Source: Bacteroidales bacterium
Lineage (GTDB): Bacteria > Bacteroidota > Bacteroidia > Bacteroidales > P3
Assembly: GCA_017645585.1 (NCBI GenBank)
Contig: JAGCOF010000049.1
Location: 1 to 45,753 of the forward strand
DNA: 45,753 nucleotides
Reading direction: 5' to 3'
Below the pieces are notes generated by a model. It was not told the DNA's origin and did not search any database. It was given only the letters and a program-made list of their open reading frames with translations. Numbering within the stretch: position 1 is the first letter of the stretch; each line of letters begins with the position of its first letter. The translations under genes were made by a program, and so were the position numbers. Shown piece by piece: positions 6,523 through 45,004 of this stretch.

Positions 6523-7216
6523 ACTCAGCGAGGTGCATGAGGAATACCTGCGCCGCATGACACAGGGCGACAGCACCCTCCTTCGGCAAGTGGAACACTA
6601 CGCCACCCGCCGCAATGGCAAGATGCTCCGTCCACGCCTCCTCCTCGCCGCAGCCGCCACCCTCGGCACCGAACACTTCCACTCCCGCCGCACACTCCTC
6701 CTCGCCGTCTGCGTCGAAATGCTACACAACGCCTCACTCCTCCACGACGACGTCATCGACCGCGCCCTCACACGTCGCGGACAACCCTCCGTCAACGCCC
6801 ATTGGAACAACTCCGTAGCCGTCCTCGTCGGCGACTACTGCCTCGCCCAGATCATGCAACTCCTCGACGAAGTCGACGACCGCGACGCCACACGCCGCAT
6901 CAACCGCACCGTCATCAACATGGTCGAAGCCGAACTCCTTGCACAAGAGATAAGTGAGACGTCAGACGTGAGATGTGAGCCCCTCTCACCTCTCACTTAC
7001 ATCAACATCATCGACGGCAAAACTGCACAACTCTTCGCCACAGCCTGCGCCCTCGGCAACCCCGCCTACGAAGACTATGGCCTACACTACGGACGCCTGT
7101 TCCAACTGCGCGACGACCTCGCCGACGGCGAAGCCACCCCATGGACCGAAGAACTCATCCAACAGGAAGAATCCATCCTCGCCAAAATGCAACCCCTTGC
7201 AATAAATATTCAATAA
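6506..7216 (+). CDS. Short trans-polyprenyl diphosphate synthase family protein
   Basis: This protein carries both aspartate-rich motifs of chain-elongating prenyl synthases: DDVID in LLHDDVIDRALTRRGQPS (residues about 79-83) and DDLAD in FQLRDDLADGE (about 200-204). KMLRPRL near residue 40 binds isopentenyl diphosphate. At 236 residues it is well short of the usual 300-325. After the second motif only about 30 residues remain, and the usual GKP..DL..GK.TLP region is missing. A 47-base repeat cassette (6952-6998) encodes SETSDVRCEPLSPLT in the loop before YINIIDGKTA. The gene starts inside dapA. It may make quinone or undecaprenyl-type chains, or be a reduced paralogue with altered activity; the sequence does not decide. 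Confidence 0.82.
   Translation: MNLEAKLSEVHEEYLRRMTQGDSTLLRQVEHYATRRNGKMLRPRLLLAAAATLGTEHFHSRRTLLLAVCVEMLHNASLLHDDVIDRALTRRGQPSVNAHWNNSVAVLVGDYCLAQIMQLLDEVDDRDATRRINRTVINMVEAELLAQEISETSDVRCEPLSPLTYINIIDGKTAQLFATACALGNPAYEDYGLHYGRLFQLRDDLADGEATPWTEELIQQEESILAKMQPLAINIQ
6952..6998 (+). repeat. Period-7 inverted repeat cassette inside the prenyl synthetase gene
   Basis: Units gtgagac, gtcagac, gtgagat and gtgagcc run in steps of seven bases from 6954. They are followed by a reverse-complement arm, ctctcacctctcactt. AAGTGAGA at 6952 mirrors TCTCACTT at 6991. The cassette is in frame and lies in a surface-loop position of the protein. Confidence 0.75.
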
Positions 7217-7246
7217 CGAATACAAAATAAATAAAAACAATACATT

Positions 7247-7747
7247 ATGAAGAAACTGTTTTTCGCCCTGATTGGCCTGCTGATGGCCGGCAACCTGATG
7301 GCACAGAATGCCAAACTGCCCGACAACATCACACTGAAAGACCTTGAAGGCCAGACGGTTCAATCCTCTGTCATCCAGAACAACGGCAAGCCCATCATCC
7401 TCAGCTTCTGGGCCACTTGGTGCAAGCCATGCAACCGTGAACTCGATGCCATCCGCGAAGTATACGACGAGTGGCAGGAGCAAACCGGCGTCAAGCTGGT
7501 GGCCATCTCCATTGACGACGCCCGTTCGGCCGCCCGTGTGCGTCCCTGGGTCGACGGCCATGATTGGGCCTACGAGGTCTACATGGATCAAAACAAGGAC
7601 TTTGCCCGTGCCATGAACGTCGGCGCCGACGTGCCGCACACCTTCATCATCAACGGCGAAGGCGAGATTGTGTGGCAGCACAAAGGCTACCAGGACGGCG
7701 GCGAGGAAGAGCTCATCGAGAAAGTGCGCGAGTTGCTGAACAACTAA
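7247..7747 (+). CDS. Secreted TlpA-like thioredoxin
   Basis: This is a 166-residue periplasmic thiol:disulphide oxidoreductase. A signal peptide (MKKLFFALIGLLMAGNLMAQ) is followed by a thioredoxin fold with the redox motif FWATWCKPCNRE (Cys59 and Cys62) and the cis-proline site VPHTFI. The ADVPHTFII and GEIVWQHKGY stretches match the TlpA/ResA branch, which usually keeps partner cysteines reduced. It is followed by an outer-membrane barrel gene and an Omp28 lipoprotein with its own CPNCP motif, so the three may act together in the envelope, though a hairpin lies between it and the barrel gene. The specific partner is not evident. No clear -7 element is seen upstream. Confidence 0.9.
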   Translation: MKKLFFALIGLLMAGNLMAQNAKLPDNITLKDLEGQTVQSSVIQNNGKPIILSFWATWCKPCNRELDAIREVYDEWQEQTGVKLVAISIDDARSAARVRPWVDGHDWAYEVYMDQNKDFARAMNVGADVPHTFIINGEGEIVWQHKGYQDGGEEELIEKVRELLNN

Positions 7748-7771
7748 GACTTACTAATTCCGTCTTTTCGA

Positions 7772-7850
7772 CAATTGTTCTTCAACAGTTCTTCAACAGT
7801 TCTTCAACTTTTTTTTGAAGAACTGTTGAAGAACGAGTGGAGAACAATTG
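7772..7850. repeat. Period-11 inverted repeat between tlpA-like and barrel genes
   Basis: The unit GTTCTTCAACA recurs every 11 bases in the left arm. After a short T-rich centre the mirrored units GAAGAACTGTT and GAAGAACGAGT recur in the right arm. CAATTG closes both ends (7772 and 7845). The transcript could fold into a very long hairpin. It may act as a terminator for the upstream gene, but its periodic make-up sets it apart from an ordinary terminator. Confidence 0.8.
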
Positions 7851-7886
7851 AAGATGAGGTATAGTCAATAAGTATATCGTTAAAAC

Positions 7887-9548: not shown

Positions 9549-9551
9549 ACC

Positions 9552-10379: not shown

Positions 10380-10382
10380 GCC

Positions 10383-11732
10383 ATGAATAAGCGCATACTC
10401 GGCCTGGCTCTGCCCAACATCATCACCAACATCACTGTGCCCTTGCTCGGCATGGTGGATATGGCCATTGTGGGGCATCTCTCGAGTACGCACATCGGCG
10501 CCATCACCATCGGCACCTCCATCTTCAACCTCATCTATTGGAACTTCGGCTTCCTGCGCATGGGCACCAGCGGCTTCACAGCACAGGCCTTCGGCGCCCA
10601 CCGATGGAACGAGGCCGTCAAAATCCTCATCCGTGCCTGCGCCATCGCCCTTGCCATCGCCTTCCTGCTCATTGTACTGCAATGGCCTATCTCACGTCTG
10701 GCCTTGGTTATCTTCGAAGGCGGCCAGGAAGTATTGCGTTTGGCTCTCGTCTACTTCTTCATACGCATCTGGGCGGCACCAGCCACTCTGGGTCTTTACG
10801 CCATCAAGGGATGGTTCATCGGCATGCAGGACTCCAAAACACCCATGTGGATAGCCATCTTCCTCAACTGCGTCAACATCGCCACCTCCCTGCTTTTCGT
10901 GCTTGTATTCCATTGGGACATTGCCGGCGTCGCCCTCGGCACCGTCATCGCCAACTACTCGGGCCTCACGCTCGGCCTCTTCTTCCTCCGCCGCAAATTC
11001 CACCGCGACCAACACCTAACAAACTATCAACCCATCAACCTCTCAACCATCAAAGAAGCCTTGCATTGGAAAGACATGAAGCGCTTTTTCAAAGTCAACG
11101 GCGACATCTTCCTGCGTACCATCTGCCTCTCAGCGGTCTTCACTTTCATCACCGCCGCCAGCGGACGCATCAGCGACCAAGTGCTCGCCATCGACGCCCT
11201 GCTGTTGCAGTTCTTCACCCTCTTCAGCTACATCATGGACGGCTTCGCCTATGCCGGCGAGAGCCTCGTCGGCCGCTATATCGGTGCCCGGCAGCTGCGC
11301 AACCTGCGTTCCGCCGTGCGACTGCTGCTGCTTTGGGGGTTGATACTCACGGCCGTGTTCACTCTCCTCTACGCTCTCTTCAGCCAACAGTTCCTGCATA
11401 TCTTCACCTCCGACCAGACACTTATTGCTGCCGCCGGCGACTACCTCTTCTGGGTGCTTGTCACACCCCTCTGTGGCTTCGCGGCCTTCCTTTTCGATGG
11501 CATCTTCATCGGCGCCACCGCCAGCCGTACCATGCGCAACGCCATGTTCGTCGCCACCGCAGCCTTCTTCCTTCTTTACTTCGGCCTCAAAGCACTCACC
11601 ACTCTTCACGCCCCGCTCTCCACTTATATGTGGAACAACATCCTCTGGCTCTCTTTCATGATTTACCTCTCCCTCCGCGGCCTCCTGCAAGGCATCCGTG
11701 TGCGCAAAGACGTCTATTCCCAAGCCCGATGA
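10383..11732 (+). CDS. MATE-family multidrug/cation efflux transporter
   Basis: This 449-residue inner-membrane protein has about twelve hydrophobic segments. It begins NKRILGLALPNIITNITVPLLGMVDMAIVGHL, with the MATE signature P-x-x-x-T-N and the VD of helix 1. The block NFGFLRMGTSGFTAQAFGA near residue 55 and VALGTVIANYSG near 185 fit the DinF branch. It should export cationic compounds in exchange for sodium or protons. It begins 3 bases after the Omp28 gene and overlaps the next gene by 4 bases. A period-8 repeat (11015-11054) encodes the cytoplasmic loop stretch LTNYQPINLSTIKEA between helices 6 and 7. The substrate is unknown. Confidence 0.93.
   Translation: MNKRILGLALPNIITNITVPLLGMVDMAIVGHLSSTHIGAITIGTSIFNLIYWNFGFLRMGTSGFTAQAFGAHRWNEAVKILIRACAIALAIAFLLIVLQWPISRLALVIFEGGQEVLRLALVYFFIRIWAAPATLGLYAIKGWFIGMQDSKTPMWIAIFLNCVNIATSLLFVLVFHWDIAGVALGTVIANYSGLTLGLFFLRRKFHRDQHLTNYQPINLSTIKEALHWKDMKRFFKVNGDIFLRTICLSAVFTFITAASGRISDQVLAIDALLLQFFTLFSYIMDGFAYAGESLVGRYIGARQLRNLRSAVRLLLLWGLILTAVFTLLYALFSQQFLHIFTSDQTLIAAAGDYLFWVLVTPLCGFAAFLFDGIFIGATASRTMRNAMFVATAAFFLLYFGLKALTTLHAPLSTYMWNNILWLSFMIYLSLRGLLQGIRVRKDVYSQAR
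11015..11054 (+). repeat. Period-8 array inside the MATE gene
   Basis: Five units each end in CAA or AAA at 8-base steps: cctaacaa, actatcaa, cccatcaa, cctctcaa, ccatcaaa. They encode the loop around LTNYQPINLSTIKEA between the two halves of the transporter. There is only one arm and no mirrored copy. Confidence 0.6.
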
Positions 11733-12301: not shown

Positions 12302-12336
12302 GAACAGAATTATCAGCACATTTAAAATCCGAAATT

Positions 12337-14637: not shown

Positions 14638-14655
14638 TTATTTAAAAACATTTCG

Positions 14656-14664: not shown

Positions 14665-14667
14665 ATC

Positions 14668-19913: not shown

Positions 19914-21101
19914 ATGAAACGCCTTGCAATCATTGTAGTTATGGCCCTGATGAGCCTCACGGCATCGGCCAATTCAGTACGTTACTTCACCCTGCCGCAG
20001 GCGCAGCGCACCGTGCGCTACCTCAACACACAGAACGAGCTGATGCTCTACTGCGGCTACGACTATGAAATCGAGACCTACGTCCTCATCAACGAAATCT
20101 GGATGGAGCGGGTCAACTCGGCCTATTACGAAATCTGGGTCTTCGGCTACGACGCCTACACGGGCGACGAAATCATCATGCCGCTCGACCTGCAGTGCGT
20201 GTGGCTCTACAGCGCCGGCCGCATGTATAACGCCGCACAGTATCTGCGCTTCCACGCCTCTGTGCGCACCCCGGGCCTCACCTGGTATATCCCGCCCTAC
20301 AACCCCTTCACCCGCCGTCCGCACTATGCCGGCTACGTGCGCACCTACCACTACCACGTCCACACCCCCGGCTGGAGACCTCCAACCCCGCCGCAACACG
20401 GCTACGGTCCTCACACTCAACCCCCGCTGCCGCCCTACTACATGCGCACCCCGCAGCAACCTGCCCCTGCACCCACCACCAGCTGGACACCCGGCGTCGA
20501 GCACCCGCAGGTGACTCCCTCCACCCCCAACGCCAACAGCCACAGCAACTCCAGCGTGCCCACCTCCAGGCCTTCGGGCGTCCGTCCCACCAACGACCAG
20601 AGCAACGGCACCGCCACCGGCACCACGCGCTCCAGCGGCACCCGTGAGTCGGGCACCACCGGCACCACACGCGAATCGGGCAACAGCAACGCCCGCCCCT
20701 CGAGCACCGGCACCACCGGCACCACGCGCGAATCGGGCAACAGCAACGTCCGTCCCTCGGGCACCGGCACCAGCAGCACCCGCACCACGAACAACACTCC
20801 CACCCGCACCAACACGGGCACCAGCACCTCGGAGCCTCGCACCAGCGGCACTACTACCCGCACCTCGGGCAACACTACCACCACCTCGCGCAACAGTGGC
20901 ACCACCACCCGCACTTCGGGCAACACAACCACCACCTCGCGCAACAGTGGCACCACCACCCGCAACAGCGGCACCACCACCGGCACCCGCTCCTCGGGCA
21001 ACAACACCACCCGCACCAGCGGCACCTCCAACAACGAGGACAAACCGACCACTACGCGCACCACCCGCACCACCGGTTCCACACCCCGCACCAGCCGATA
21101 G
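19914..21101 (+). CDS. Secreted protein with Thr/Ser/Gly/Arg-rich repetitive tail
   Basis: This 395-residue protein has a signal peptide (MKRLAIIVVMALMSLTASA). Residues about 20-150 form a compact aromatic-rich domain (RYFTLPQAQRTVRYLNTQNELMLYCGYDYEIETYVLINEIWME ...) that I do not recognise. A Pro/His/Tyr-rich spacer at about 150-200 is followed by a 190-residue low-complexity tail made of TGTTRESGNSN-, TTRTSGN- and TTTTSRNSG-type repeats. Such tails may be flexible stalks or O-glycosylation sites, since Bacteroidota glycosylate D-S/T-hydrophobic sites, though that motif is not prominent here. It has its own promoter. No function can be given. Confidence 0.82.
   Translation: MKRLAIIVVMALMSLTASANSVRYFTLPQAQRTVRYLNTQNELMLYCGYDYEIETYVLINEIWMERVNSAYYEIWVFGYDAYTGDEIIMPLDLQCVWLYSAGRMYNAAQYLRFHASVRTPGLTWYIPPYNPFTRRPHYAGYVRTYHYHVHTPGWRPPTPPQHGYGPHTQPPLPPYYMRTPQQPAPAPTTSWTPGVEHPQVTPSTPNANSHSNSSVPTSRPSGVRPTNDQSNGTATGTTRSSGTRESGTTGTTRESGNSNARPSSTGTTGTTRESGNSNVRPSGTGTSSTRTTNNTPTRTNTGTSTSEPRTSGTTTRTSGNTTTTSRNSGTTTRTSGNTTTTSRNSGTTTRNSGTTTGTRSSGNNTTRTSGTSNNEDKPTTTRTTRTTGSTPRTSR
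20625..21070 (+). repeat. Coding tandem repeats in the Thr-rich tail
   Basis: A 51-base unit encoding GTTTRTSGNTTTTSRNS occurs about twice with a third partial copy (20846-20975). Further upstream, two longer copies encode TGTTGTTRESGNSN followed by -ARPSS or -VRPSG. Period and codons are in register with the reading frame, unlike the 7/8/11-base arrays elsewhere in the window. They are prone to slippage and assembly collapse. Confidence 0.8.
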
Positions 21102-24198: not shown

Positions 24199-24310
24199 AT
24201 TTTTATTTATCGCGCTGCGCGTAATACGTAAAAACGGATAAAAAAATTTACAAGATTAACAGGATTACCGCCGACGGCGGGGAGGTAAAAAAACGGTAAT
24301 AAAATTAGGT

Positions 24311-24362
24311 CGTGCACGATATAAATGGTTGTCAGTTGTTAGTTGTCAGTTGTCAGTTCGGC
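24311..24362 (+). repeat. Composite element copy 1: CGTGCACGATATAAATG plus period-7 array
   Basis: CGTGCACGATATAAATGG (24311-24328) leads directly into gttgtca, gttgtta, gttgtca, gttgtca, gttcggc in seven-base steps. The first eight bases are a perfect palindrome (CGTGCACG). Confidence 0.75.
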
Positions 24363-24490
24363 CACCCAATCCACCTCCAGAAAGCTCCTTTGTCGGATAA
24401 AAACAGGGAAAGACAGCAACCGTCACCACTAACAATCATGTTATAAGCCAATTAAACGCCGTTTTACCGTCCGTGTCACTACGGACTCCC

Positions 24491-24560
24491 TCCGACTGTG
24501 GTCCGACTCAACTCCGAGTCAAGTCCGAGTGATGTCCGACCGCAGTCGGAGAAAAGTCGG
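24491..24560. repeat. Period-11 array with mirrored ends
   Basis: Units start with TCCGA at exact 11-base steps: tccgactgtgg, tccgactcaac, tccgagtcaag, tccgagtgatg, tccgaccgcag, then tcggagaaaag and tcgg. CTCCGACTG at the left and CAGTCGGAG at the right are reverse complements, so the array folds on itself. Confidence 0.8.
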
Positions 24561-24588
24561 TGCACACACGGTGTTGATACGAATATAT

Positions 24589-24630
24589 CGTGCACGACAT
24601 AAATTGGTGGTTGGAGGTCGGTTTTGTTTT
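24589..24630 (+). repeat. Composite element copy 2: CGTGCACGACATAAAT plus period-7 array
   Basis: CGTGCACGACATAAAT (24589-24604) is followed after a T by ggtggtt, ggaggtc, ggttttg, tttttgc. It has one base change in the motif compared with copies 1 and 3. Confidence 0.65.
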
Positions 24631-24735: not shown

Positions 24736-24787
24736 CGTGCACGATATAAATGGGTGGCTGGTGGTCGGTGGCTGGTGGCCGACGGCT
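24736..24787 (+). repeat. Composite element copy 3: CGTGCACGATATAAATGG plus period-7 array
   Basis: The motif (24736-24753) is identical to copy 1 over 18 bases and leads into ggtggct, ggtggtc, ggtggct, ggtggcc, gacggct. The last unit reaches the stop codon of the DnaJ-like gene. Confidence 0.75.
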
Positions 24788-25571
24788 ACTTCATCGAGGG
24801 ACGGCGGTCTTTGATGACTTCGTAGGCCTGGTTGATTTCTTTCATCTGCTCGGCGGCGTGGCGCTGCATCTCCTCACTCATGCCGGCCACCCGGTCGGGG
24901 TGATATTTCATGGCCATGCGGCGGTAGGCACGCTTGACCTCGTCGTCGGTGGCCTTGCTGTCGACACCCAGCACACGGTAGGGGTCTTTTTGATTGCTTG
25001 AATGTGTAAATGCTTGATTGCTTGAGTAGCCCACATGGCGCTCATGGATGGAGGTGTAGTCGGAGGCGGAGATGCCGAGGTACTGCGCGATGAGGCGCAG
25101 CATGTTGAGCTCGGTTTGGTGGAACTCGCCGTCGGCGCCGCCGATGCCGAAGAGGAAGTCGACCATGTGGTAGCGGGTGCTGTAGTCGGTGTTGACCTTG
25201 ATCTGGGCGCAGACCTGGTCGATGGGTATGTCGCGCTCCACCATCTGCTGCAGCACTTTGAGCATCTGCTTGCCGCGTTCCTCGCCGTAGTTGGCCAGGA
25301 GGAATTTCTTGACGTAGTCGAGCTCGCTCCGCTTGACCTGACCGTCGACTTTCATGACGGCAGCGATGAGTACCATGAGGGCGACGTTGACGTCCTGCTG
25401 GGTGCCGGTGTTGCGGTAGGGGCCGCGATGATAGTAGGTCTGTTCCTCGCCGTCGCCAATCTGTTTGTCGGGCGAGATGGCTTTGCCGAGGAAGTAGCCA
25501 AGGATGCCGCCGATGGGGCCGCCGATGGCCCAGCCGAGGCCCGCGAAGAGCCATTTTACGAAGGTGCTCAT
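24786..25571 (-). CDS. TerB-type and C-terminal J-domain protein (DjlA-like co-chaperone)
   Basis: This is a 261-residue protein. Residues about 5-28 form a Gly-rich hydrophobic segment (FAGLGWAIGGPIGGILGYFLG) that may anchor it in the membrane. A TerB-like helical domain spans about 60-170 (ALMVLIAAVMKVDGQVKRSEL ... FGIGGADGEFHQTELNML). A short linker SSNQAFTHSSNQ is coded by a period-8 repeat, and a J domain with the diagnostic HPD in MAMKYHPDRVAG closes the protein. The domain order equals DjlA, which recruits DnaK to the inner membrane. The start codon lies directly against a ten-unit period-7 array that replaces any normal ribosome-binding site. Confidence 0.9.
   Translation of the reverse strand: MSTFVKWLFAGLGWAIGGPIGGILGYFLGKAISPDKQIGDGEEQTYYHRGPYRNTGTQQDVNVALMVLIAAVMKVDGQVKRSELDYVKKFLLANYGEERGKQMLKVLQQMVERDIPIDQVCAQIKVNTDYSTRYHMVDFLFGIGGADGEFHQTELNMLRLIAQYLGISASDYTSIHERHVGYSSNQAFTHSSNQKDPYRVLGVDSKATDDEVKRAYRRMAMKYHPDRVAGMSEEMQRHAAEQMKEINQAYEVIKDRRPSMK
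24991..25026 (-). repeat. Period-8 array in the DnaJ-like gene linker
   Basis: On the plus strand the units are tgattgct, tgaatgtg, taaatgct, tgattgct and tgag, in eight-base steps. In frame they encode the linker SSNQAFTHSSNQ between the TerB and J domains. The unit is close to that in the GH97 gene (tgattgcg, ttaatgcg). Confidence 0.7.
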
Positions 25572-25679
25572 GTTTTTAGTTATTAGTTAAGAGTTAAGAG
25601 TTAGGAGTTGTTAGTTTTTAGTTGTTAGTGGGTAGTTTTTAAACCGTAAACTTATTTTACTTTTCACTTTTACTGATTA
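25572..25679. repeat. Period-7 inverted array between the GH3 fusion and DnaJ-like genes
   Basis: Ten units of GTTnnnA type follow in perfect seven-base steps from 25572: gttttta, gttatta, gttaaga, gttaaga, gttagga, gttgtta, gttttta, gttgtta, gtgggta, gttttta. A mirrored arm (25649-25676, period 7 as gtaaaag, tgaaaag, taaaata on the other strand) overlaps the last codons of the GH3 fusion. The array touches the ATG of the DnaJ-like gene. Confidence 0.85.
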
Positions 25680-34122: not shown

Positions 34123-34192
34123 GTAAAAAACAAAGTAGTACAGGACAAATACATTAAAAGGATAAAAAAACGACCTTTGTACCACCACCGCG

Positions 34193-34258
34193 GTAGTCGA
34201 TGGGTAGTCGATGGGAAGTCCTTGGTAAGTCCTTGGTAGGTTCTTGACAGGACTGTAG
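34193..34258. repeat. Period-11 array upstream of leuS
   Basis: Six units in exact 11-base steps: gtagtcgatgg twice, gaagtccttgg, taagtccttgg, taggttcttga, caggactgtag. It lies between the TIGR04076 gene and the leuS promoter. Only weak mirrored pairing is seen (AAGTCCT with AGGACTG). Confidence 0.8.
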
Positions 34259-34278: not shown

Positions 34279-34578
34279 CTACACCCGTTCCAACAGGAAA
34301 CTCACCGGCCGGAAACCGTCGTTGCAGCTAATCATCGCGCTGTGGGGGTTCTGCATCCAGCCGTCGTAGAAGTTGCCCCTACCGGCAGCCAGCTCCTGCA
34401 CAAACCACCGTATGCTCTCCCAAGCGCTGTCACACAATCCCTCAGGCTTCTCTCCACCATGCGCCACCCACGCCTGCCCTTCCCTTACGCTGCAGGCATG
34501 CTCTATGGGGTTCTCATAGAGCGCCTGCAGGTCACGGTAGTCAGCCTTGCGGATGACCGTTATCTTCACATCGTACAT
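34279..34578 (-). CDS. TIGR04076 family protein
   Basis: This is a 99-residue cytoplasmic protein starting MYDVKITVIRKADYRDLQALYE, with CSVREGQAWVA, PEGLCDSAWESIRWFVQELAAG and the closing block ISCNDGFRPVSFLLERV. That pattern of conserved Cys-Asp, a Trp-rich helix and a C-[NT]-D-G-x-R-P-V end matches TIGR04076. The family's function is unknown; the conserved cysteines suggest metal or redox chemistry. It follows the NdvB-like gene with a 31-base gap filled by a period-7 array that sits 6 bases before the ATG. Confidence 0.88.
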   Translation of the reverse strand: MYDVKITVIRKADYRDLQALYENPIEHACSVREGQAWVAHGGEKPEGLCDSAWESIRWFVQELAAGRGNFYDGWMQNPHSAMISCNDGFRPVSFLLERV

Positions 34579-34583
34579 TTTTT

Positions 34584-34625
34584 GTTTTACATTTCGCGTT
34601 TTACGTTTTTCACTTTCCTATTTCA
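34584..34625. repeat. Period-7 array between NdvB-like and TIGR04076 genes
   Basis: Plus-strand units gttttac, atttcgc, gttttac, gtttttc, actttcc, tatttca follow in seven-base steps. They overlap the last codons of the NdvB-like gene (EIGK, stop) and reach the start of TIGR04076. Confidence 0.7.
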
Positions 34626-37600: not shown

Positions 37601-40600
37601 GGTGCGGTGACTCTCAATGATATCGGCATGGGCCAAACTGCCTCCACGACCAAGGAATTTAAGCCTCGAGGTCTCATATTCCACCCTATTATCTGTATCT
37701 TGCTCCTCCGTCTCAGTGCCTTCTATCCACAATTTATGCAATACATAGTGATGAACCCCAGCAGAAGCCGGGCGGCTGAACACCAGCGCCTGATGGCCGG
37801 CATCATATTCCGACCGTATCTTCATGGCGTTGAACACACGATGACTTTCGTCTTCGCCTCGCGGTGACAGCACTACTTCGCCGTACGTCGTCAGCTCCAA
37901 CTCGACATCCTCATTCGTGTTGTTTGTGAACGTATAACGTCGCAGTTCGGCCATGTGATCCTTCAGCACGGTGATTTCCGTCTGGGTCTCTATGCCTCCG
38001 TCTCTTCGCAGGAAGCCTATCTTGTCGCTAGCAAAGCTCACTCGGTAGCCATCAGGCAACACATCCAACGGGGCATACGTCGCTGACCACAGGCGGTCGT
38101 CCCTCAGGTTGCGTATAAACAGGTAGCACCCGTAATGGTCTGCGCTAACCTTGCGGTAGCGGTTGATGAGTATATTCCTATAGCGCGAGAAACCACTGCC
38201 ACGGTCGTTCAACATCACGGTATATTCCCCATTGCTCACCACTCCAATCTCCGGCACATTGGCCACACCGTCATACTCGCGCGCATCACTCTCTGTCTGG
38301 ACTTTTGAGTACTGGTAACGCTTGTACTTGGTCACTTTCAGGTCGATATACGGCTTCACCTGCGCCTTCTCCTTCAGCAGCGTCTCCATACTCCGCATAA
38401 CCGGCGCCTGCATAAAGTAGTGCTGCAGGCAATGGTCACACAGGTAGTTGGCCAGCGAGGCGAGTATCATTCCCTGATGGTGTGCATAGTGTGCCCGCAC
38501 CGCCACATGGTCCTCCGCATCGTAGCTCTCATAGAAACCAAACTCGTCATACATCCCCATCGACCTAAACCGACACATATTCTCATACACCGCGCGGTCG
38601 TCCACCCCAATGGTCATCAACGAACTGTAGGGCGACACGACGATGCGGTCGGGAGTGGTGTTCTGGAATTTGAGATAGGGAACGCCAAAAGCATGGTATT
38701 TGTAGTTCTGTGCATCGTCCAGCTCGTTGTAGGCCGTCTCGGATATACCCCACGGGAGTTTTTGGGTTTGTTTTTGGGGTTTTGCGTTTTTGACGAAGGC
38801 GCGTTGGGCACGCAGGGCGAAGCTGTAGGTCTCGTCCATCAGGGTGTGGCGATAGGTGGGCAGGAAGATGAGGGGCATGAAATATTCGAAGAGGGTGCCA
38901 TACCACGAGGCGACGCCTTTGTAGCCACGATACTGCACCAGCGTCTTGTCGAGGCAAAACCAATGCTTGTAGGGCGCGTCGCCCTGGGCGATGGTGAGGA
39001 ACGAGGTGAGGCGGGCCTCGGAGGCGTAGTTGTTGTAGTGGTAGGGGAGCAGGCAGTGCGCGCCGTGGTCGTAGCCGATGCTGAAGACGTCGAGCTCGGG
39101 GTTGTAGAGCTTGGTGAAGTCGGTCTCGTCGATGAGGCGCTGCACCCGGGCGGCGAGCATCGCGGGGTGGGTGTCTGCTGTTTCGCTTTGCGCCGTCGGC
39201 GTCGCGCTTTGGGCAAGCCATCCTTTGACCACATGGAGGCAGGCGACGAAGTTGCCCGAGTCGCAGGTGCTGATGAAGTAGTTGGGCAGGGCCTTGAGCG
39301 AATGGATGTCGTACCAGTTGAAGAGGTGGCCGTTCCACTTCTCGAGCCTGGTCACTGTGTCGACGATGTGTTCCAGCCGCCGCACGGCCTCGTCGTCGGT
39401 GATGTAGCCCAGCCGGGCGGCGCTGACCACGGCGGTGAGCGAGTAGCCGATGTTGGTGGGCGAGGTCTTGTAGTCGGTCAGCGGCTCGCGCCCCAGCTGG
39501 TAGTTGTCGGGAATCAAGTAATGGGTGTCTGGGGTAATGAGGGTGTCGAAGAAGTGCCATGTGTCTTTGGCCAGCCGGCGCACCTCGTCAGTCTCCTTGG
39601 CGTTGAGGGTGTGCCTGTCCTGCGGGAACTTGCGGCCCAGCCGGTACATCAGCAGCGGCGCTCCGCACCACAGCAGCACGCAGAAGAGGGTGGCACCGGT
39701 GGTGAACGCCGCCGAGGCCGTGGAGGTGTGGACGGAGAAGAGGCAGAGGAGGATGAGCGCCGCCGAGGCCACGTAGTTGAACCAGAACTTGCCGAGGTAG
39801 TCGCCCATGGTGCCTTTGGTGCTGCGGGCGGCTTCGTCGCTGGTAATCCAGGCCAGCAGGTCGCGATGCGAGAACCACATGCGGTAGCAGGCCCGCACGG
39901 CGGCATCGGTGTACATCCAGGCCTCTTTGGGCAGCAGTGCGAACTGCACCATGGAGCGGTAGAGTATCACCTTGAAGCCTCGCATGAGGGTCATGTAGTA
40001 GCGGTAGCGTTTGCCGAACCGCGGCAGGGTGGTTATCTGCCCGATAATGAAAAACACTATGGGGCTGGCCACAGCGACGAGCGCTATGAGGACGTAGCAG
40101 GCGGGGTTGAGGGGTGAGAGGTGAGAGGTGAGAAGTGAGAGCGTGTAGCCGGCGAAGATGGTCAACATCAGCGCCAGGCTCAGCACCGAGCGGCGCAGGT
40201 TGTCGAATATCTTCCAGCGGCCGATGGTGTTCACCTGGTTTTTGACGCGCTCGCCCCGCTCGTTGCGCACGGTGTCCTTGAGCCAACCGATAATCTGCCA
40301 ATCGCCACGCGTCCAGCGGTGGTGGCGCTTGGCGTCGTCGATGTAGTTGGAGGGGTTGTCGTCGAAGAGTTCCACATCGTTGATGAGGCCGCAGCGGATG
40401 TGGCAGCCCTCGAGCAGGTCGTGGCTGAGGATGAGATTCTCGGGGAAGGTGCCCTTGAGTACCTGCTGGAAGACGCGCAGGTCGTAGATGCCCTTGCCGC
40501 AGAAGGAGCCCTCGTTGAAGATGTCCTGATAGAGCTCGAAGCTGGCAGTGGTGTAGACATCCAAGCCCCCCAAGCCGGCCATAAGCTGGGCGTAGCGGCT

Positions 40601-42403
40601 CTTGTTGGTCACCTCAACGTCGACGTTGACGCGGGGCTGCATGATGCCGTAGCCCGAGTCCACGCGGCGGCCGTCGGGACTCAACTGCGCGCGGTTGAGC
40701 GGATGCGCCATAGCCCCGATGAGCTTCTGTGCCGAGTAGAGCACCAGCTCGGTGTCGGTGTCGAGGGTGATAATGAATTTGATTGGTGAGTTGTCGGTTG
40801 TCAGTTGTCGGTTGTAGGTAGGGCTGCCGCCACCTTGCATATTACTATCAGCTGACAGCTGACAACTGACAACTGATTTCAGCCATGCTGAAATCGTCTC
40901 GCAGCGGAAACGCTTCTGCTTGTCGGCCTCGCTGGTCTGACCCAGCACCAGGTCGTTGAAGTGCAGGATGGCGCCGCGCTTGCGTTCGTGGCCCAACCAT
41001 GTCTGTTCGCCCTCGCTCCAAGCACGGCGACGATAGACGAAGTTGAAGATGGGAACTCCGTACTTCTCATTGAGTTCCTTGACCTTCTGCAGGCCTGCGT
41101 CGACCACTTCCTGGTCCCACGGAGCATCTGCCTCCTTGTAGGCCGCCGCGTCGCCGATAAGGGTATAGTAGAGGTTCTGCGGACGGCTTTCGAGGCGCTG
41201 GAAGGCACGATTTCCTCCCTTGAGGTCGGATTCCGCACCTGAGGCGCGGTTGATGTTGCTCAGGTAGTAGACCTCAAGCTGTTCCAGCAACTCCAACGTC
41301 TTGGCCTTGTTCTTCAGGATGGTGGGCATAATGACCATCGTGGTGTATTCCTTGGGAATGAGGCCGTCCTTGAATTTGATTTTGAAGGTATTCACGGGCT
41401 TGTGCAGCTTGCCCAGCAGCCAATTGAAGAGGTCTATCACCACCTGGCTCATCGGCACCCATAGCAGCAGCGCCATCACTCCAAACACAATCCAATTGGT
41501 GCCGTAGTTGCCTTTAGGGGCCGGCACCCCATAGCCCGCTACCGAAGCTATCGTCACCGACAGCGCCAACGAGGCCAACACCACAATCCACACATAGCTG
41601 TGGGCACGGGCACTCCACTTCTTCGGCGGAAAAAGCTGCCAGCCGACATGCTCGCCGCGCTCGTCGGCCTGCCGGACCAACATTTTGACCAGGTCGTATT
41701 CCGTTTTTCGTTTATCGTTTTTCTGTTTTCTTGACAGGCGGACAATCCTGTTGCGGTAGTCGTCTTTGGTGCGGTCGTACATCTGGTCGTACATGCCGGC
41801 CCGCTCGGCCTTGAGTGTTTTCTCCGAGAAGCTGACGGCGTCGACCAGCTCGGCCATGGGCAGCCGTGTCATCTTGCGCAGCGAGTTGAAGATGTTCATC
41901 ATCTGCAGGTTCTGGCGGGCCGCCTGCTCGAGGCGGGCGGCACCGAAGCGCGCCTTGTCGGTCGGCGAGTAGCGGTAGGCCTGCTCGCGCTCCAATTCGC
42001 CGCACAATGTGGCCAGCTCGTGGATGAGCAACAGCTTGCACAGAGGCAGCAGGGCGGTCACCTCGGGGTAGGAAAGATAGTCTTTTTCGCGCTGCTGCAC
42101 CTGGGCCAGGTAGCGGAACAGCAGCGCCTTGTCCACCTCGTAGTGGCACCGCTTGAGGTAGTTGGCCAGGAGGTCCCACATCTGTTGCAGCCTTGCGCGC
42201 TCCACGCGCCACTCGCCTTTCCCGATGCTCCGCAATTCGTTGCGCAACACTTTCTCCTGCTCGCTGATCATGTAGTAGTTGTCGAGCACCCATTCGTTGG
42301 TGCTGCCCACCAGCCGCTGGCTTTTCGTCTCCTCGACCAGCAGCATGTAGTAGTGCGTCACTTGGCGCACGCTCTGTTTGAATATGTTGTGTATGCTCTT
42401 CAT
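34610..42403 (-). CDS. Cyclic beta-1,2-glucan synthase-like giant enzyme (GT84 + glucoamylase-like + GH94)
   Basis: At 2597 residues this is close to the NdvB/Cgs size of about 2800. In order: a helical N-terminal region (1-260); membrane spans at about 267-290 and 303-325; a GT84-type transferase with TLDTDTEL (545-553) and HHRWTRGDWQ (694-703); more spans at 736-757, 770-790, 875-920; a glucoamylase-like domain (about 960-1340, with HYAHHQGMILASLANYL) that in NdvB does the cyclising transglycosylation; and GH94 phosphorylase modules (about 1385-2590) with GCGDWNDGMSS near residue 2289. It should polymerise glucose from UDP-glucose at the inner membrane. Four period-7 arrays lie inside the gene in frame. 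Product linkage is inferred from the family. Confidence 0.88.
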   Translation of the reverse strand: MKSIHNIFKQSVRQVTHYYMLLVEETKSQRLVGSTNEWVLDNYYMISEQEKVLRNELRSIGKGEWRVERARLQQMWDLLANYLKRCHYEVDKALLFRYLAQVQQREKDYLSYPEVTALLPLCKLLLIHELATLCGELEREQAYRYSPTDKARFGAARLEQAARQNLQMMNIFNSLRKMTRLPMAELVDAVSFSEKTLKAERAGMYDQMYDRTKDDYRNRIVRLSRKQKNDKRKTEYDLVKMLVRQADERGEHVGWQLFPPKKWSARAHSYVWIVVLASLALSVTIASVAGYGVPAPKGNYGTNWIVFGVMALLLWVPMSQVVIDLFNWLLGKLHKPVNTFKIKFKDGLIPKEYTTMVIMPTILKNKAKTLELLEQLEVYYLSNINRASGAESDLKGGNRAFQRLESRPQNLYYTLIGDAAAYKEADAPWDQEVVDAGLQKVKELNEKYGVPIFNFVYRRRAWSEGEQTWLGHERKRGAILHFNDLVLGQTSEADKQKRFRCETISAWLKSVVSCQLSADSNMQGGGSPTYNRQLTTDNSPIKFIITLDTDTELVLYSAQKLIGAMAHPLNRAQLSPDGRRVDSGYGIMQPRVNVDVEVTNKSRYAQLMAGLGGLDVYTTASFELYQDIFNEGSFCGKGIYDLRVFQQVLKGTFPENLILSHDLLEGCHIRCGLINDVELFDDNPSNYIDDAKRHHRWTRGDWQIIGWLKDTVRNERGERVKNQVNTIGRWKIFDNLRRSVLSLALMLTIFAGYTLSLLTSHLSPLNPACYVLIALVAVASPIVFFIIGQITTLPRFGKRYRYYMTLMRGFKVILYRSMVQFALLPKEAWMYTDAAVRACYRMWFSHRDLLAWITSDEAARSTKGTMGDYLGKFWFNYVASAALILLCLFSVHTSTASAAFTTGATLFCVLLWCGAPLLMYRLGRKFPQDRHTLNAKETDEVRRLAKDTWHFFDTLITPDTHYLIPDNYQLGREPLTDYKTSPTNIGYSLTAVVSAARLGYITDDEAVRRLEHIVDTVTRLEKWNGHLFNWYDIHSLKALPNYFISTCDSGNFVACLHVVKGWLAQSATPTAQSETADTHPAMLAARVQRLIDETDFTKLYNPELDVFSIGYDHGAHCLLPYHYNNYASEARLTSFLTIAQGDAPYKHWFCLDKTLVQYRGYKGVASWYGTLFEYFMPLIFLPTYRHTLMDETYSFALRAQRAFVKNAKPQKQTQKLPWGISETAYNELDDAQNYKYHAFGVPYLKFQNTTPDRIVVSPYSSLMTIGVDDRAVYENMCRFRSMGMYDEFGFYESYDAEDHVAVRAHYAHHQGMILASLANYLCDHCLQHYFMQAPVMRSMETLLKEKAQVKPYIDLKVTKYKRYQYSKVQTESDAREYDGVANVPEIGVVSNGEYTVMLNDRGSGFSRYRNILINRYRKVSADHYGCYLFIRNLRDDRLWSATYAPLDVLPDGYRVSFASDKIGFLRRDGGIETQTEITVLKDHMAELRRYTFTNNTNEDVELELTTYGEVVLSPRGEDESHRVFNAMKIRSEYDAGHQALVFSRPASAGVHHYVLHKLWIEGTETEEQDTDNRVEYETSRLKFLGRGGSLAHADIIESHRTLTGTVGTTLDPVMSMRRRVLVPAGKEVEVYVMTAFAKSKEQLLHVVEQYRSAMDVNYAFETASVFNNMRTSMSTLKGVHMRLYNNIAKYIGQTATLGNDRPQLLAQNTLSQSGLWRFGISGDLAIVLMEVDSMAKSGFAKEMLRAFEYYKVHGMMLDLVIINDAVGDEHDSLTHFIRNMADTEHLWSTHSVAGKVYVLDGSDVSREERVLLRTVARLVFDTGEGLTIEQQLERLEAANQHYQDKIEYPALRPKREFRVWSSLDYYNQYGGFDREGRDYVVTNTNTPMPWVNVIANPQFGCVVSSTMSGFTFARNAQQFKLTGWSNDMVRDSASEMLLIGRRQFVPATARHSQGWSAFDAEYDDLKVNVRVFVAVERMEKYYQIRLENKLDRPQEVQLDMVYKLVLGDSEERTARYLYSEWDEASNTLRVRNVYHPVYRDSWVLLSATEPLTDVSLNYPNRKRLGLTVDIAAQSEKELAFVMAVSDGGYTPQSTIKNINEEYDRVVAFWDDRLTHIQVETPDRSFNYMLNRWYLYQVYSSRLFARAGFYQVGGATGFRDQLQDVMSLLYRDPAYARRQILDHAAHQFAEGDVLHWWHESMKMGARTTFSDDYLWLVFVTYQYVKVTGDTSILNEQVPFCQAEQLRPDEAERGVNYTVGSDSVSLYEHLRRSMNRAMSRIGAHGLPLMGCGDWNDGMSSVGVGGKGESVWVAFFLADLLPKMEQLTQMTPGADLSYCEELSAFRRGLVDAIQRSAWDGAWFLRAWYDNGDPMGSRNSVECQIDLICQAWSILTDVATPEQKASIMRETDRRLVNREHEIIQLLTPAFRNSNPSPGYIMNYPEGVRENGGQYTHGAMWYIMAKLKEGRIDEAYYLYSLINPVHRTQTLADVLKYKVEPYCIAADIYSNPQHPGRGGWTWYTGSASWAYKTGIENILGFRKEGDRLTIDPHIPSEWQGYTLRYRHGSSTYVIKVTSGQAVIPTVIDLVDDGQVHEIEIGK
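38758..38792 (-). repeat. Period-7 array in the NdvB-like gene (1)
   Basis: Plus-strand units gtttttg, ggtttgt, ttttggg, gttttgc, gtttttg. They encode the basic, Gln-rich stretch NAKPQKQTQKLP near residues 1206-1217 in the glucoamylase-like domain. Confidence 0.6.
40113..40140 (-). repeat. Period-7 array in the NdvB-like gene (2)
   Basis: Units ggtgaga three times and agtgaga once, in seven-base steps. In frame they encode LLTSHLSPL between two membrane spans (residues about 757-765). The unit equals that of the cassette in the prenyl synthetase gene. Confidence 0.75.
40790..40876 (-). repeat. Period-7 inverted cassette in the NdvB-like gene (3)
   Basis: Left arm: gttgtcg, gttgtca, gttgtcg, gttgtag. 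The right arm (40847-40876), read as reverse complement, is cagttgt, cagttgt, cagctgt, cagctga. It encodes SVVSCQLSADSNMQGGG and TYNRQLTTDNS (residues about 511-539), directly before the conserved FIITLDTDTEL catalytic strand of the transferase. Confidence 0.8.
41703..41730 (-). repeat. Period-7 array in the NdvB-like gene (4)
   Basis: Plus-strand units gtttttc, gtttatc, gtttttc, tgttttc. They encode the Lys/Arg-rich RKQKNDKRKTEYD (residues about 225-237). The unit matches the intergenic array at 34584. Confidence 0.65.
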
Positions 42404-42522
42404 TGGTTGTCACGAAGGAAATAGAAATGCAAAGGTACGAAAAAAAAACGATAGCGGCAGGATTTTTTTTACAGCACGCGCGGTGTGTGTGTGGCGGGCC
42501 GGCGGCCCCGAAAAAATTTTTT

Positions 42523-42555
42523 TTTGGTGTTGTGCCGATTGTTGTGTATCTTTGC
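42523..42555 (+). promoter_or_regulatory. Promoter of the GH97 gene
   Basis: TTTG at 42523-42526, 20 bases, TATCTTTGC at 42547-42555. The divergent NdvB-like gene has a possible -7 element TACCTTTGC on the minus strand at 42429-42437 without a clear TTTG partner. Confidence 0.8.
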
Positions 42556-42583
42556 ACCCTGATTCAAAATGGCAATATGGTAT

Positions 42584-45004
42584 ATGAAGACACGTTTGAT
42601 GCTCTTGTTGTTGATGTTAATGATTGCCCTGGGCGCGGGGGCGCAGACGCTGGAGAGCCCCGACGGGCGGCTGGAGGCGCGGTTCGAGCTGCGCGAGGGG
42701 GTACCCTACTACAGCCTCTACCGCGAGGGACGGGCGGTGGTGCTGCCGTCGAGGATGGGCTTCGAGCTGGAGTGGCGCGACGACCTGGCGCACGCCTTCG
42801 TGCTCAAGGGGGTGGAGCGCAGCTCGTTCGACGAGGTGTGGCGTCCCGTGTGGGGCGAGGAGGGGCGTGTGCGCAACCGCTACAACGAGATGCTGGTGAC
42901 GCTGGAGCAGCCGGCGGGGGCGGTGGCGAGCGCCGACGGGCGTTCGAAGACGCTGCCCACGGTGATGCAGCTGCGCTTCCGCCTCTACGACGACGGCCTC
43001 GGTTTTCGTTATGAATTCCCGATGCGCCGCGAGGGGGTGGACAACGCGCTGGTGTGCTTCTGGTTCAAGGAGGAGTTGACGGAGTTCCGGATGACGGGCG
43101 ACCACACGGCGTGGTGGATCCCGGGCGACTACGACACGCAGGAGTACAACTACACCTGCAGCCGGCTGAGCCAGATCGACAGCCTGTGGGAGAAGAGCCA
43201 CGAGCACGGCGGCTGGCCGTGGACGGCTTTCTCGCGTACCGGTGTGCAGACGGCCCTGCAGATGCGCACCGACGACGGCCTCTACATCAACATCCACGAG
43301 GCCGCCACGCTGGACTACCCGACGATGCACCTCAATCTGGATTGCGTTAATGCGTCAATGCGTGATTGCGTTAATGCGTCAATGCTTGATTGCGTTAATG
43401 CGTCATTGCGTAATTGCGTTAATGCGTCAATGCGTGATTGCGTTAATGCTGACACATTGACGCAATCCCACAACGACGCATTCGTGCTCCGCACATGGCT
43501 CTGCCCCGACGCTGCGGGCTACAAGGGCCGCTTGCAGGCTCCGTGCCACACCCCCTGGCGCACGGTGATGGTGTGCGAGCGGGCCACCGACGTGCTGCGT
43601 TCGCGCCTGATCCTCAACCTCAACGAGCCGTGCGCCCTGGAGGATGTCAGCTGGATCCACCCGGTGAAGTACATGGGTGTGTGGTGGGAGATGATCAGCG
43701 GCAAGAGCACCTGGAGCTACACTAATGAATACCCGTCGGTGCGGCTCGGCGAGACCGACTTCGAGCACGCCACCCCCAACGGCACCCACGGCGCCAACAA
43801 CGCCAATGTGCGCCGCTACATCGACTTTGCCGCCCAGCACGGCTTCGACGCCCTCCTCATCGAGGGGTGGAATGTCGGCTGGGAGGATTGGTACGGCAAG
43901 CAGAAGGAGTTCGTCTTCGACTTCCTCACCCCCTACCCCGACTTCGACCTACCGGCGCTGAACCGCTATGCCCATGAGAAAGGCATCCGCCTCATCATGC
44001 ATCATGAGAGCAGCGCCTCGACGGTCAACTACGAGCGCTGGATGGAGCAGGCCTACACACTGATGAACCACTACGGCTACGACGCCGTGAAGAGCGGCTA
44101 TGTGGGCACCATCATCCCCTTTGCCGAAGGGCACTACAGCCAGCCCATCAACAACCACTACCACTACGCCATCGTCGAGGCCGCCAAGCACCACATCATG
44201 GTCAACGCCCACGAGGCGGTGCGCCCCACGGGCCTCTGCCGCACGTGGCCCAACATGATTGGCAACGAGAGCGCTATGGGCACCGAGTTCCGCGAGCGCA
44301 TCCATCCCGGCCACACCTCCATCCTGCCCTTCACCCGTCTGCAGGGCGGCCCGATGGACTACACGCCCGGCATCTTCGAGCCCGACATGGGCAAGATTGT
44401 GCCCTGGGGCGGCAAGATGAGCCACACCATCTGCAACCAGCTGGGCCTCTATGTCACCTTCTACTCGCCGCTGCAGATGGCCGCCGACTTCCCCGAACAC
44501 TACGAGCCCTACCTCGACGCCTTCCAATTCATCAAGGACGTGGCCGTCGACTGGGACACCAGCATCTACCTCTACGCCGAGCCGGGCGACTACATCGTCA
44601 CCGCCCGCAAGCCCAAGGTGTCGTCGTTGAACAAGGCCGCCGAGGGAGTGGTTCGGTTACCTGACGGCAAGAAAGGCGTCATCAGCAATGCAGCACAGTA
44701 TGTGTATGGTGTTGATGGGGCTGATGGGCTTGAAGGGATGGTGCCGTTGGACACTTGGTATATCGGCGGCATCACCGACGAGACCGCCCGCGAGTTCAGC
44801 GTCAAGCTCGACTTCCTGCAGCCGGGCAAGACCTACGACGCCATCATCTACGCCGACGCCAAGGACGCCAGCGGCCTCCCCGGCGAGGGCTACAACCCGC
44901 AGGCCTACACCATCACCAACAAGAAAGTGACCAGCAAGACCACCCTCAAACTGAAGATGGCCCCCTGCGGCGGCTTTGCCGTCAGCATCCGCGAGCGCAA
45001 GTAG
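42584..45004 (+). CDS. Glycoside hydrolase family 97 (SusB-like inverting alpha-glucosidase)
   Basis: The product has 806 residues from the ATG that begins a signal peptide (MKTRLMLLLLMLMIALGAGAQ); an ATG five codons earlier is in frame. An N-terminal beta-sandwich precedes a TIM barrel (HPVKYMGVWWEMISG, LIEGWNVGWEDWYG) and a C-terminal beta domain. Three Glu line up with the inverting SusB set: Glu475 in HHESSAS, Glu544 in NAHEAVRP, Glu562 in GNESAMGTEF. Family members cleave alpha-glucosides in the periplasm. No SusC/D pair is adjacent. A 14-unit period-8 array encodes repeated DCVNASMR inside the N-terminal sandwich. Confidence 0.95.
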   Translation: MKTRLMLLLLMLMIALGAGAQTLESPDGRLEARFELREGVPYYSLYREGRAVVLPSRMGFELEWRDDLAHAFVLKGVERSSFDEVWRPVWGEEGRVRNRYNEMLVTLEQPAGAVASADGRSKTLPTVMQLRFRLYDDGLGFRYEFPMRREGVDNALVCFWFKEELTEFRMTGDHTAWWIPGDYDTQEYNYTCSRLSQIDSLWEKSHEHGGWPWTAFSRTGVQTALQMRTDDGLYINIHEAATLDYPTMHLNLDCVNASMRDCVNASMLDCVNASLRNCVNASMRDCVNADTLTQSHNDAFVLRTWLCPDAAGYKGRLQAPCHTPWRTVMVCERATDVLRSRLILNLNEPCALEDVSWIHPVKYMGVWWEMISGKSTWSYTNEYPSVRLGETDFEHATPNGTHGANNANVRRYIDFAAQHGFDALLIEGWNVGWEDWYGKQKEFVFDFLTPYPDFDLPALNRYAHEKGIRLIMHHESSASTVNYERWMEQAYTLMNHYGYDAVKSGYVGTIIPFAEGHYSQPINNHYHYAIVEAAKHHIMVNAHEAVRPTGLCRTWPNMIGNESAMGTEFRERIHPGHTSILPFTRLQGGPMDYTPGIFEPDMGKIVPWGGKMSHTICNQLGLYVTFYSPLQMAADFPEHYEPYLDAFQFIKDVAVDWDTSIYLYAEPGDYIVTARKPKVSSLNKAAEGVVRLPDGKKGVISNAAQYVYGVDGADGLEGMVPLDTWYIGGITDETAREFSVKLDFLQPGKTYDAIIYADAKDASGLPGEGYNPQAYTITNKKVTSKTTLKLKMAPCGGFAVSIRERK
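43339..43482 (+). repeat. Period-8 inverted array in the GH97 gene
   Basis: Fourteen units in perfect eight-base steps cycle through tgattgcg, ttaatgcg, tcaatgcg. A mirrored segment follows (TGACACATTGACGCAATC, 43449-43466; its reverse complement is GATTGCGTCAATGTGTCA). Three units equal 24 bases, so the protein repeats every 8 residues (DCVNASMR, DCVNASML, NCVNASMR). About 45 residues are added within the N-terminal domain. Confidence 0.85.

Follow-up and report, generated by a model that had tools for sequence, protein, structure and literature searches.

Short arrays of tandem heptamers have been noted piecemeal in several phyla, and their mechanism has not been agreed upon. Herein, such arrays are compared with those of 7-, 8- and 11-base-pair (bp) units found in a 45,753-nucleotide stretch termed the window (contig JAGCOF010000049.1 of assembly GCA_017645585.1, order Bacteroidales, lineage P3) and in the genomes of its genus. 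TAACTGA heptamer arrays of Beggiatoaceae, cyanobacteria and five Bacteroidetes are described, in the passages concerned of MacGregor 2015 (PMC4679880), as mostly intergenic, often just before start codons and strain-specific, close relatives carrying shorter, array-free spacers and other heptamers being mixed in. Passages of the same source that cite Mrazek et al. 2007 deal with long simple sequence repeats of 5 to 11 nt, LSSR(5-11), among which heptanucleotides are reportedly the commonest class in most genomes and for which polymerase slippage was proposed. The part of PMC4476775 on the Nostoc trnL intron reports heptamer stems in P6b that belong to Class I (TDNGATT) or Class II (NNTGAGT), and for Geobacter metallireducens the passages concerned of PMC2700814 list, along with MTYCTGA x5, a GGACCGG element of four units that occurs at 49 genic and intergenic sites.

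With the TAACTGA arrays, those studied here share tandem heptamers, a place in gaps before start codons and relatives with shorter, array-free spacers, and one of their units, GTTGTCA, differs by a single base from a rotated complement of TAACTGA. Compared with what the relevant passages of PMC4679880 describe, they differ in that about half of the 7-bp arrays are genic, that a minority has inverted arms, that 8- and 11-bp classes exist and that, instead of a single unit with related heptamers being rare, many unrelated 7-bp units occur. As in the Nostoc intron, one repeat class repeatedly replaces another at the same site and seven-base repeats form a paired stem; the part of PMC4476775 concerned treats a single site in a group I intron, whereas many protein genes and spacers and many unit classes are involved here. 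The dispersed family of genic and intergenic heptamer arrays recalls that of G. metallireducens, in which, however, unit and copy number are fixed, and 8- and 11-bp classes are not reported in the passages concerned (PMC2700814). The arrays do consist of tandem units of 5-11 nt that run longer than chance allows, but their degenerate units and their peaks at 7, 8 and 11 set them apart from LSSR(5-11) as outlined in parts of PMC4679880.

An earlier note on this DNA, made from the sequence alone, had offered no named class for such strings. Indeed, no single name or accepted mechanism was found, while heptamer arrays as such had already been published, as passages of PMC4679880, PMC2700814 and PMC4476775 attest; the open-licence literature, surveyed by titles and abstract openings, showed no paper on 8- or 11-bp arrays or on a palindrome-bounded element in Bacteroidales. 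Added here are the period classes 8 and 11, the recurrent in-frame replacement in conserved enzymes, the partly private vocabularies and the palindrome-bounded carrier. It is tentatively proposed that the arrays are the products of two processes with a common appearance rather than one family.

Periods and gene context of the arrays

Self-matching was scanned at each lag (match +1, mismatch -2, segments kept at a score of at least 14) both in the window and in 20 further stretches, 328,064 bases in all, of its source genome, G000, a draft of 1.93 Mb in 62 contigs and 83% complete; the comparison genomes are drafts as well, many of them metagenome-assembled, and gene and array calls depend on the thresholds. 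The window yielded five segments at period 7, one at 8, three at 11, two each at 14 and 21 and one each at 12, 16 and 24, and none at 4, 5, 6, 9, 10 or 13. The other stretches yielded 25 at 7, four at 8, 38 at 11, 16 at 14 and nine at 22, with zero to two at each remaining period from 4 to 30 and none at 4, 5, 10 and 13. Local dinucleotide shuffles, ten of the window and one of each other stretch, gave no segment at any period. When each array was counted once in 897,946 bases of the genus, drawn from 28 data sets, the spectrum again rose at 7 (95), 8 (18) and 11 (66), with their multiples 14 (14), 16 (6) and 22 (2); the rest comprised periods 6 (5), 9 (9), 12 (6), 15 (5), 18 (3), 20 (4) and 21 (10), one array each at 10, 17 and 19 and none at 5 and 13, the shuffles again giving none. 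Tandem Repeats Finder (TRF), at a score of at least 30, returned 11 arrays against 1.9 in shuffles at period 7, 4 against 1.1 at 8 and 6 against 2.05 at 11, the separation being less clean in that periods 9 (8 against 2.05) and 12 (9 against 0.85) also stood out.

Site by site, the lag score was unmatched in 300 local shuffles at 13 of 15 named or adjacent window sites; those at 24991 and 34584 are weak taken alone, because shuffles equalled their scores 3 and 15 times in 300. The strings listed in the earlier note are present where it placed them and mostly recur in the TRF output, the repeated units GGTGAGA, GTTGTCA and TGATTGC-like were recovered, and the periodicity of 7, 8 and 11 bases extends to other G000 contigs at counts far above those of shuffled sequence. 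The units are degenerate within most arrays, which in this differ from perfect repeats of a single unit, as may be demanded by the published LSSR definition.

The gene context was surveyed in 373.8 kb of G000, about 19% of the genome, in which a hexamer-based caller placed 286 genes (coding fraction 0.895). All six 8-bp arrays lay within genes, as did 23 of the 41 7-bp arrays, of which a further 15 occupied co-directional gaps, many of them tight, and the orientation of the 7-bp arrays looked mixed by eye. Intergenic positions accounted for 43 of the 46 11-bp arrays, distributed over co-directional (24), divergent (15) and convergent (3) gaps, with one at the edge of a contig stretch. Transcription terminators were rejected as an identity for the 11-bp arrays, since the co-directional and divergent gaps exceed the convergent ones.

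Inverted arms were sought as reverse complements within 150 bp, with the two arms of a pair counted separately and swapped flanks as control, and were found near 8/41 arrays of period 7 (control 2/164), 1/6 of period 8 (0/24) and 19/46 of period 11 (5/184). The proposal that many arrays have a second arm survives only in part, as the arms exceed the controls but belong to a minority. Its companions, that arrays occur both in and between genes and are made at the DNA level, are borne out, the latter by periods 7 and 8 that are not multiples of three and by arms that are reverse complements. The "one design" ascribed to them holds for their look; beneath it lie two classes, 7/8-bp arrays that appear as local overwrites and 11-bp arrays of which many sit in dispersed elements.

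Same-site turnover of the 7- and 8-bp arrays

Four in-gene sites, two in the GH94 gene and one each in the GH97 and polyprenyl synthetase genes, were compared across sister species in 111 rows, with expected counts taken from shuffles; six of 30 fetched polyprenyl synthetase loci, in which only the downstream part matched, and three of 30 for the second GH94 loop gave no row. Arrays were flagged in 25 of the 111 alleles, against 0.23 expected, and 110 rows keep the reading frame. At the first GH94 site (40783-40877), seven of 30 rows were flagged (0.02 expected), the lengths are congruent modulo three in 30/30 and the loop measures 17 nt in 14/30. The units at this one site are unrelated, namely GTTGTCA in G000, CCACTGT in G008, GTGGATA in G303, GAGAGTG in G007, GCCGGCA in G010, GCTCCCC in G052 and ACTATCC in G019, and in G002 2.4 heptamers are seen by eye at an unchanged loop length of 17 nt. 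The second GH94 site has 4/27 flagged rows (0.12 expected), all 27 in frame, and the GH97 site 7/30 (0.04 expected), with lengths congruent modulo three in 29/30, the sole out-of-frame row being the flagged G061, a 14-bp duplication. At the polyprenyl synthetase site, where 7/24 rows were flagged (0.05 expected) and all 24 are in frame, the sisters have either 7- or 8-bp arrays with unrelated units or no array at all (the bare loop measures 41 nt in 7/24), and in some alleles the sequence is replaced at near-constant length, with 44 nt in G019 and G313 and 38 nt in G002 against 41 nt.

In a FastTree phylogeny of the GH94 flanks, array bearers are interleaved with array-free sisters (G008 with G023 and G052 with G302, for example), which, together with the unrelated units at the same site, indicates independent gain or wholesale replacement many times at tolerated places. 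The question raised in the earlier note, whether the same arrays stand at the same sites in all relatives, is answered in the negative, as they are absent or replaced by unrelated units in sisters. Nine flagged alleles out of 25 have an inverted arm that at most one of 100 shuffles matched (three in G000, two in G007 and one each in G010, G300, G004 and G305), and the GH94 inserts fold strongly where the arm exists (G007, -63.9 kcal/mol, z -10.9; G000, -52.7 kcal/mol, z -8.2). Arms discerned by eye in G002 (second GH94 site) and G314 (polyprenyl synthetase) were discarded, as shuffles match them 10 and 11 times in 100.

A comparable diversity was seen by eye in the spacer directly upstream of the start codon of the TerB-DnaJ gene (24786-25571): GTTNNNA heptamers in the window, TGATTGCT octamers in L004, TGATGAG heptamers in differing number in L005 and L008, GTTTAAG in L009 and L051, ATTAGGA in L045 and AATAGTT-like units in L006/L054, with L046, L047, L048, L050, L052, L053, L056 and L010 array-free. 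The alignment of orthologues that had been suggested for defining insertion boundaries and duplications was realised for one filled/empty spacer pair, G023 and G008, the closest available (91% identity in the block before the site and 80% after it). One member has a 9-nt stop-to-start spacer and the other 91 nt of heptamers spanning stop to start codon, and no target duplication is evident by eye at this site. Separately, L004:3579-3687 carries about 109 nt of CGTGAATTG-like units, with a period of about 10-11 and inverted pieces by eye, where L005 has a 12-nt gap.

The sharing of units was assessed for 267 arrays of 32 genomes by 500 label permutations. It amounts to 0.155 within genomes against 0.077 between them at period 7 (permutation maximum 0.125) and to 0.097 against 0.013 at period 11 (maximum 0.069); at these two periods, each genome has a partly private stock of unit words. 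In G021, G296 and G300, long 8-bp arrays with a single vocabulary occupy many loci, and 12 of the 13 long-octamer stretches examined there have no open frame of more than 30 codons through the array. As an observation apart, L063:17028-17061 and L005:16809-16842 hold an identical 34-nt heptamer array in a gene stretch that is about 96% alike, in species not close at the TerB-DnaJ gene, which, on this sequence likeness, suggests that gene transfer may have carried the array.

At the level of the order, 97 of the 247 genomes searched match the GTTNNNA heptamer pattern, which is patchy even inside a family; the reversed pattern provides no null, because it is itself a heptamer array and also matches. 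Pattern-rich genomes of other families (153 kb) contain seven arrays at period 7, five at 8 and one at 11, a sample biased upward because three of its 12 stretches were placed on known matches, and zero-count genomes of other families (141 kb) contain none at these periods. The complementary pattern AACTNNN matched at least 120 viral stretches.

Dispersed elements with 11-bp arrays

The TCCGACTNNNN array is the core of element A, which extends for about 300 bp between two 24-bp palindromes. Its repeated pattern gave 60 matches in G000 and at most two in any of 80 other genomes, of which 5/80 had any. Forty distinct G000 copies were aligned, with palindromes near AAATAGGTCGTGCACGACCTAAAT and spacings between them of 267 (10 copies), 277 (8) and 278 bp (15), plus seven others, and many blastn matches span 24301 to about 24605. 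The order is left palindrome, 7-bp array (in most copies), spacer, 11-bp array, hairpin and further 11-step motifs. Twenty-nine copies have four or more in-step units; in these, likeness is higher between 11-bp units that occupy one position in different copies (0.840) than among the units of one copy (0.776), which implies that the 11-bp block was inherited as such. For the 7-bp module, in register in 14/40 copies, unit likeness within copies (0.832) surpasses the maximum of 1000 dealt sets (0.798), which suggests homogenisation within copies, though two subfamilies could also account for it. These 14 copies display two word classes, AGTTGTC and GGTGGTC, the units of a copy being mostly switched together at constant length. 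With 24-bp palindromes on both sides, the ends of element A have the form of the terminal inverted repeats of miniature inverted-repeat transposable elements (MITEs).

The 24-bp palindrome occurs 104 times in G000, 106 times in G314 (as a homogenised variant), seven times in G309, five times in G012 and once each in G321, G326 and G344, and 92 of 99 genomes have none. In G314 it lies within a different, highly conserved element of about 190 bp with an 11-bp GAGTCATCAGG array (13 copies aligned), of which 295 genomes of the order contained only 26-37-bp pieces in three, G000 among these; 11-bp arrays of other sequence also lie between or beside the palindromes in G314, G012 and G309. The G314 element, present in L209-L224 (e.g., L219:440-690), also carries a GGGCAAGG-TTTTGCCC hairpin and drew no match in Rfam or among phages.

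Element B is a long hairpin with GTTCTTCAACA arms, represented by 63 half-sites in G000 (at most one mismatch) and by none in 58 other genomes of the genus; the copies inspected have nearly invariant inner arms and a variable short loop, and the window copy folds at -48.2 kcal/mol (RNA parameters, z -8.4). Other 11-bp families recur in G000, such as CCCGAGGTTAT and GGAGTGAGAGG.

Neither a description nor a mover of the palindrome-bounded element, which stands as a dispersed element of its own, was found in Rfam, PF01797, plasmid, phage and literature searches. A known structured RNA family was rejected, as Rfam returned only tRNA for the window at the gathering threshold and, for eight element-bearing loci (E up to 5), nothing but tRNAs above that threshold. 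An RNA gene was likewise rejected for element A, RNAalifold showing mainly palindrome end pairing and a central TCCGAC hairpin with both strands alike. A phage or plasmid origin was set aside with no match of 24290-24620 in plasmids, of the G314 element in phages or of the element-B hairpin in viral contigs, and so was a REP/RAYT system (repetitive extragenic palindromes with their transposase), the cognate Y1_Tnp gene being unmatched in G000 though common in the genus. The 267- and 278-bp spacings do not differ by one TCCGA unit, since nearly all copies of both classes have a 5-unit run, and no palindrome pairs more than 627 bp and less than 3 kb apart, such as an autonomous partner with these ends might show, occur in the partly sampled G000. 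A 20-bp palindrome pattern was detected on one viral contig only, IMGVR_UViG_3300025873_002826 (L332:1233-1252), a possible clue to the mover.

Arrays and elements of the window, in window coordinates
Position	Strand	Feature	Context
6952..6999		7-bp array GTGAGAC/GTGAGAT with inverted arm CTCTCACCTCTCAC	polyprenyl synthetase gene 6506-7216 + (in frame)
7770..7855		element B copy: 11-bp array GTTCTTCAACA x3, T-run, inverted arm	intergenic
11015..11053		8-bp array, ATCAACCC-like	inside MatE transporter gene 10383-11732 +; lag score 10, 0/300 shuffles
24303..24604	+	element A, from palindrome to palindrome: 7-bp array, ~130 bp, 11-bp array with hairpin	
24303..24326		left 24-bp palindrome AATTAGGTCGTGCACGATATAAAT of element A	
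24328..24358		7-bp array GTTGTCA	adjoins left palindrome of element A
24491..24555		11-bp array TCCGACTNNNN with TCCGACCGCAGTCGGA hairpin	element A
24581..24604		right 24-bp palindrome GAATATATCGTGCACGACATAAAT of element A	
24736..24787		third palindrome half-site CGTGCACGATATAAAT, then 7-bp array GGTGGCT	
24990..25025		8-bp array TTGAATGC/TTGATTGC	variable linker of TerB-DnaJ protein, gene 24786-25571 -; weak alone (3/300)
25572..25641		7-bp array GTTNNNA	fills spacer directly upstream of start codon, gene 24786-25571 -
34192..34246		11-bp array GGTAGTCGATG / GGTAAGTCCTT	intergenic
34574..34611		weak 7-bp array GTTTTAC	extends to 3' end of GH94 gene; 15/300 shuffles
40104..40140		7-bp array GGTGAGA	in frame, GH94 / glucoamylase-domain gene 34610-42403 -
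40790..40876		7-bp array GTTGTCR and inverted arm CTGACAA, 29 nt apart	in frame, GH94 gene
41700..41736		7-bp array CGTTTTT/CGTTTAT	in frame, GH94 gene
43339..43482		8-bp array TGCGTTAA/TGCGTCAA, 13.4 units, 24-bp higher order, short inverted arm	in frame, GH97 gene 42569-45004 +

Unlike these arrays, the repeats of 21, 51 and 57 bp at window positions 20602-21074, within the open reading frame 19914-21101, are multiples of three and represent an ordinary protein-level repeat.

Origin and meaning of the arrays

In the reading preferred here, with a confidence just short of even, the 7/8-bp arrays would have grown in situ in short neutral patches of DNA, such as an operon spacer or an exposed protein loop. 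Replication slippage and hairpin (snap-back) template switching would overwrite such a patch in short steps of synthesis and would also create the inverted second arm where one is present. The overwriting may often be seeded from another array of the same genome, which would make the unit words partly private, and selection would then retain in-frame, stop-free alleles only. Many 11-bp arrays, on the other hand, would be modules of dispersed, probably non-autonomous elements (A/C between palindromes and hairpin B), copied through single species as whole ordered units. Slippage, seeding and dispersal are steps inferred from what was observed directly, namely the period spectrum, the sites and their frames, the unrelated arrays at the same site, the words shared at periods 7 and 11, the element boundaries and the species restriction. 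Both candidate explanations of the earlier note thereby find a place, slippage or snap-back synthesis fitting the 7/8-bp arrays better and a miniature element many of the 11-bp ones.

Several results weigh against this reading. Snap-back cannot be general, because 16 of the 25 flagged in-gene arrays lack an arm beyond chance (100 shuffles each) and only the minority of 7-bp arrays counted above has one nearby. The three permitted periods are not predicted by plain slippage, and the within-genome sharing of 8-bp units is not significant (0.278 against 0.099, permutation maximum 0.325). G008 and RUG12227 share an identical 34-nt array although its 2 x 120-nt flanks differ at nine positions, so the arrays are not fast-slipping or hypervariable, and phase variation was rejected on the same observation. 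As to the elements, target duplication around element A is not above chance (abutting repeats of at least 4 nt in 3/40 copies, about 2.7 with swapped flanks), its two main palindrome spacings share the TCCGA unit number, the plasmid and phage searches were negative, and no transposase was found, PF01797 (Y1_Tnp) having no match in the 83%-complete G000 and matches in 28 of 41 genomes of the genus.

Rickettsia palindromic elements and REP/REPIN sequences are dispersed palindromic pieces, some of them in frame inside genes. It is conceivable, if rather unlikely, that all arrays, the 7/8-bp ones included, are trans-mobilised miniature elements of such a kind (REP/REPIN, MITE or Rickettsia-palindromic-like) that integrate in hairpin form and, where they enter genes, in frame. 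Dispersed families, arms in a minority, in-frame genic copies, the one-vocabulary long 8-bp arrays at many loci of G021, G296 and G300 and the clear dispersal of elements A and B all speak for such an account. Yet the 7/8-bp arrays show no constant ends and no fixed element, unit and period vary at one site between species, and replacements occur at nearly unchanged length; moreover, no duplication was found by eye in the filled/empty pair or above chance around element A, and neither Y1_Tnp nor a RAYT-type gene was found in G000.

Less probable still are selected cis-acting sites, serving either as signals for translation or termination or as binding sites of a protein whose reading unit is one turn or a 7-bp step. 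The 7-bp arrays in co-directional gaps recall the TAACTGA repeats before Beggiatoaceae start codons (in the passages concerned of PMC4679880), the 24-bp palindromes resemble dimer-binding sites, and stable hairpins form at three tested sites. Such signals are, however, hard to reconcile with units that differ at one site or are absent in sisters, with in-gene positions, with the presence of 11-bp arrays in gaps of both the divergent and the co-directional kind, with the lack of an Rfam family and with an element A that has no wide conserved fold beyond end pairing and central hairpin.

A long shot is that a dedicated enzyme, patchy in Bacteroidales, writes 7/8/11-step DNA at breaks or stalled forks, as a processively slipping or templated polymerase, and overwrites spacers and loops with genome-specific words; if so, bacteria would have their own counterpart of the repeat-adding enzymes, overlooked since its product resembles noise. 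That protein-level selection for repetitive hydrophilic loops amplifies the arrays is hardly credible, for although they lie in variable loops and linkers with their frames kept, their periods of 7 and 8 are not multiples of three, spacers and intergenic elements have the same look, the arms are reverse-complementary at the DNA level, and periods 9 (9 arrays) and 15 (5) are far rarer than period 7 (95).

With many events, empty and filled states on a tree, and loops of conserved enzymes as their sites, the genus constitutes a natural replay experiment, in which the origin of the arrays and the reason for 7, 8 and 11 become testable questions. For annotation, it is a warning that variable loops in such proteins can be products made at the DNA level and not functional motifs.

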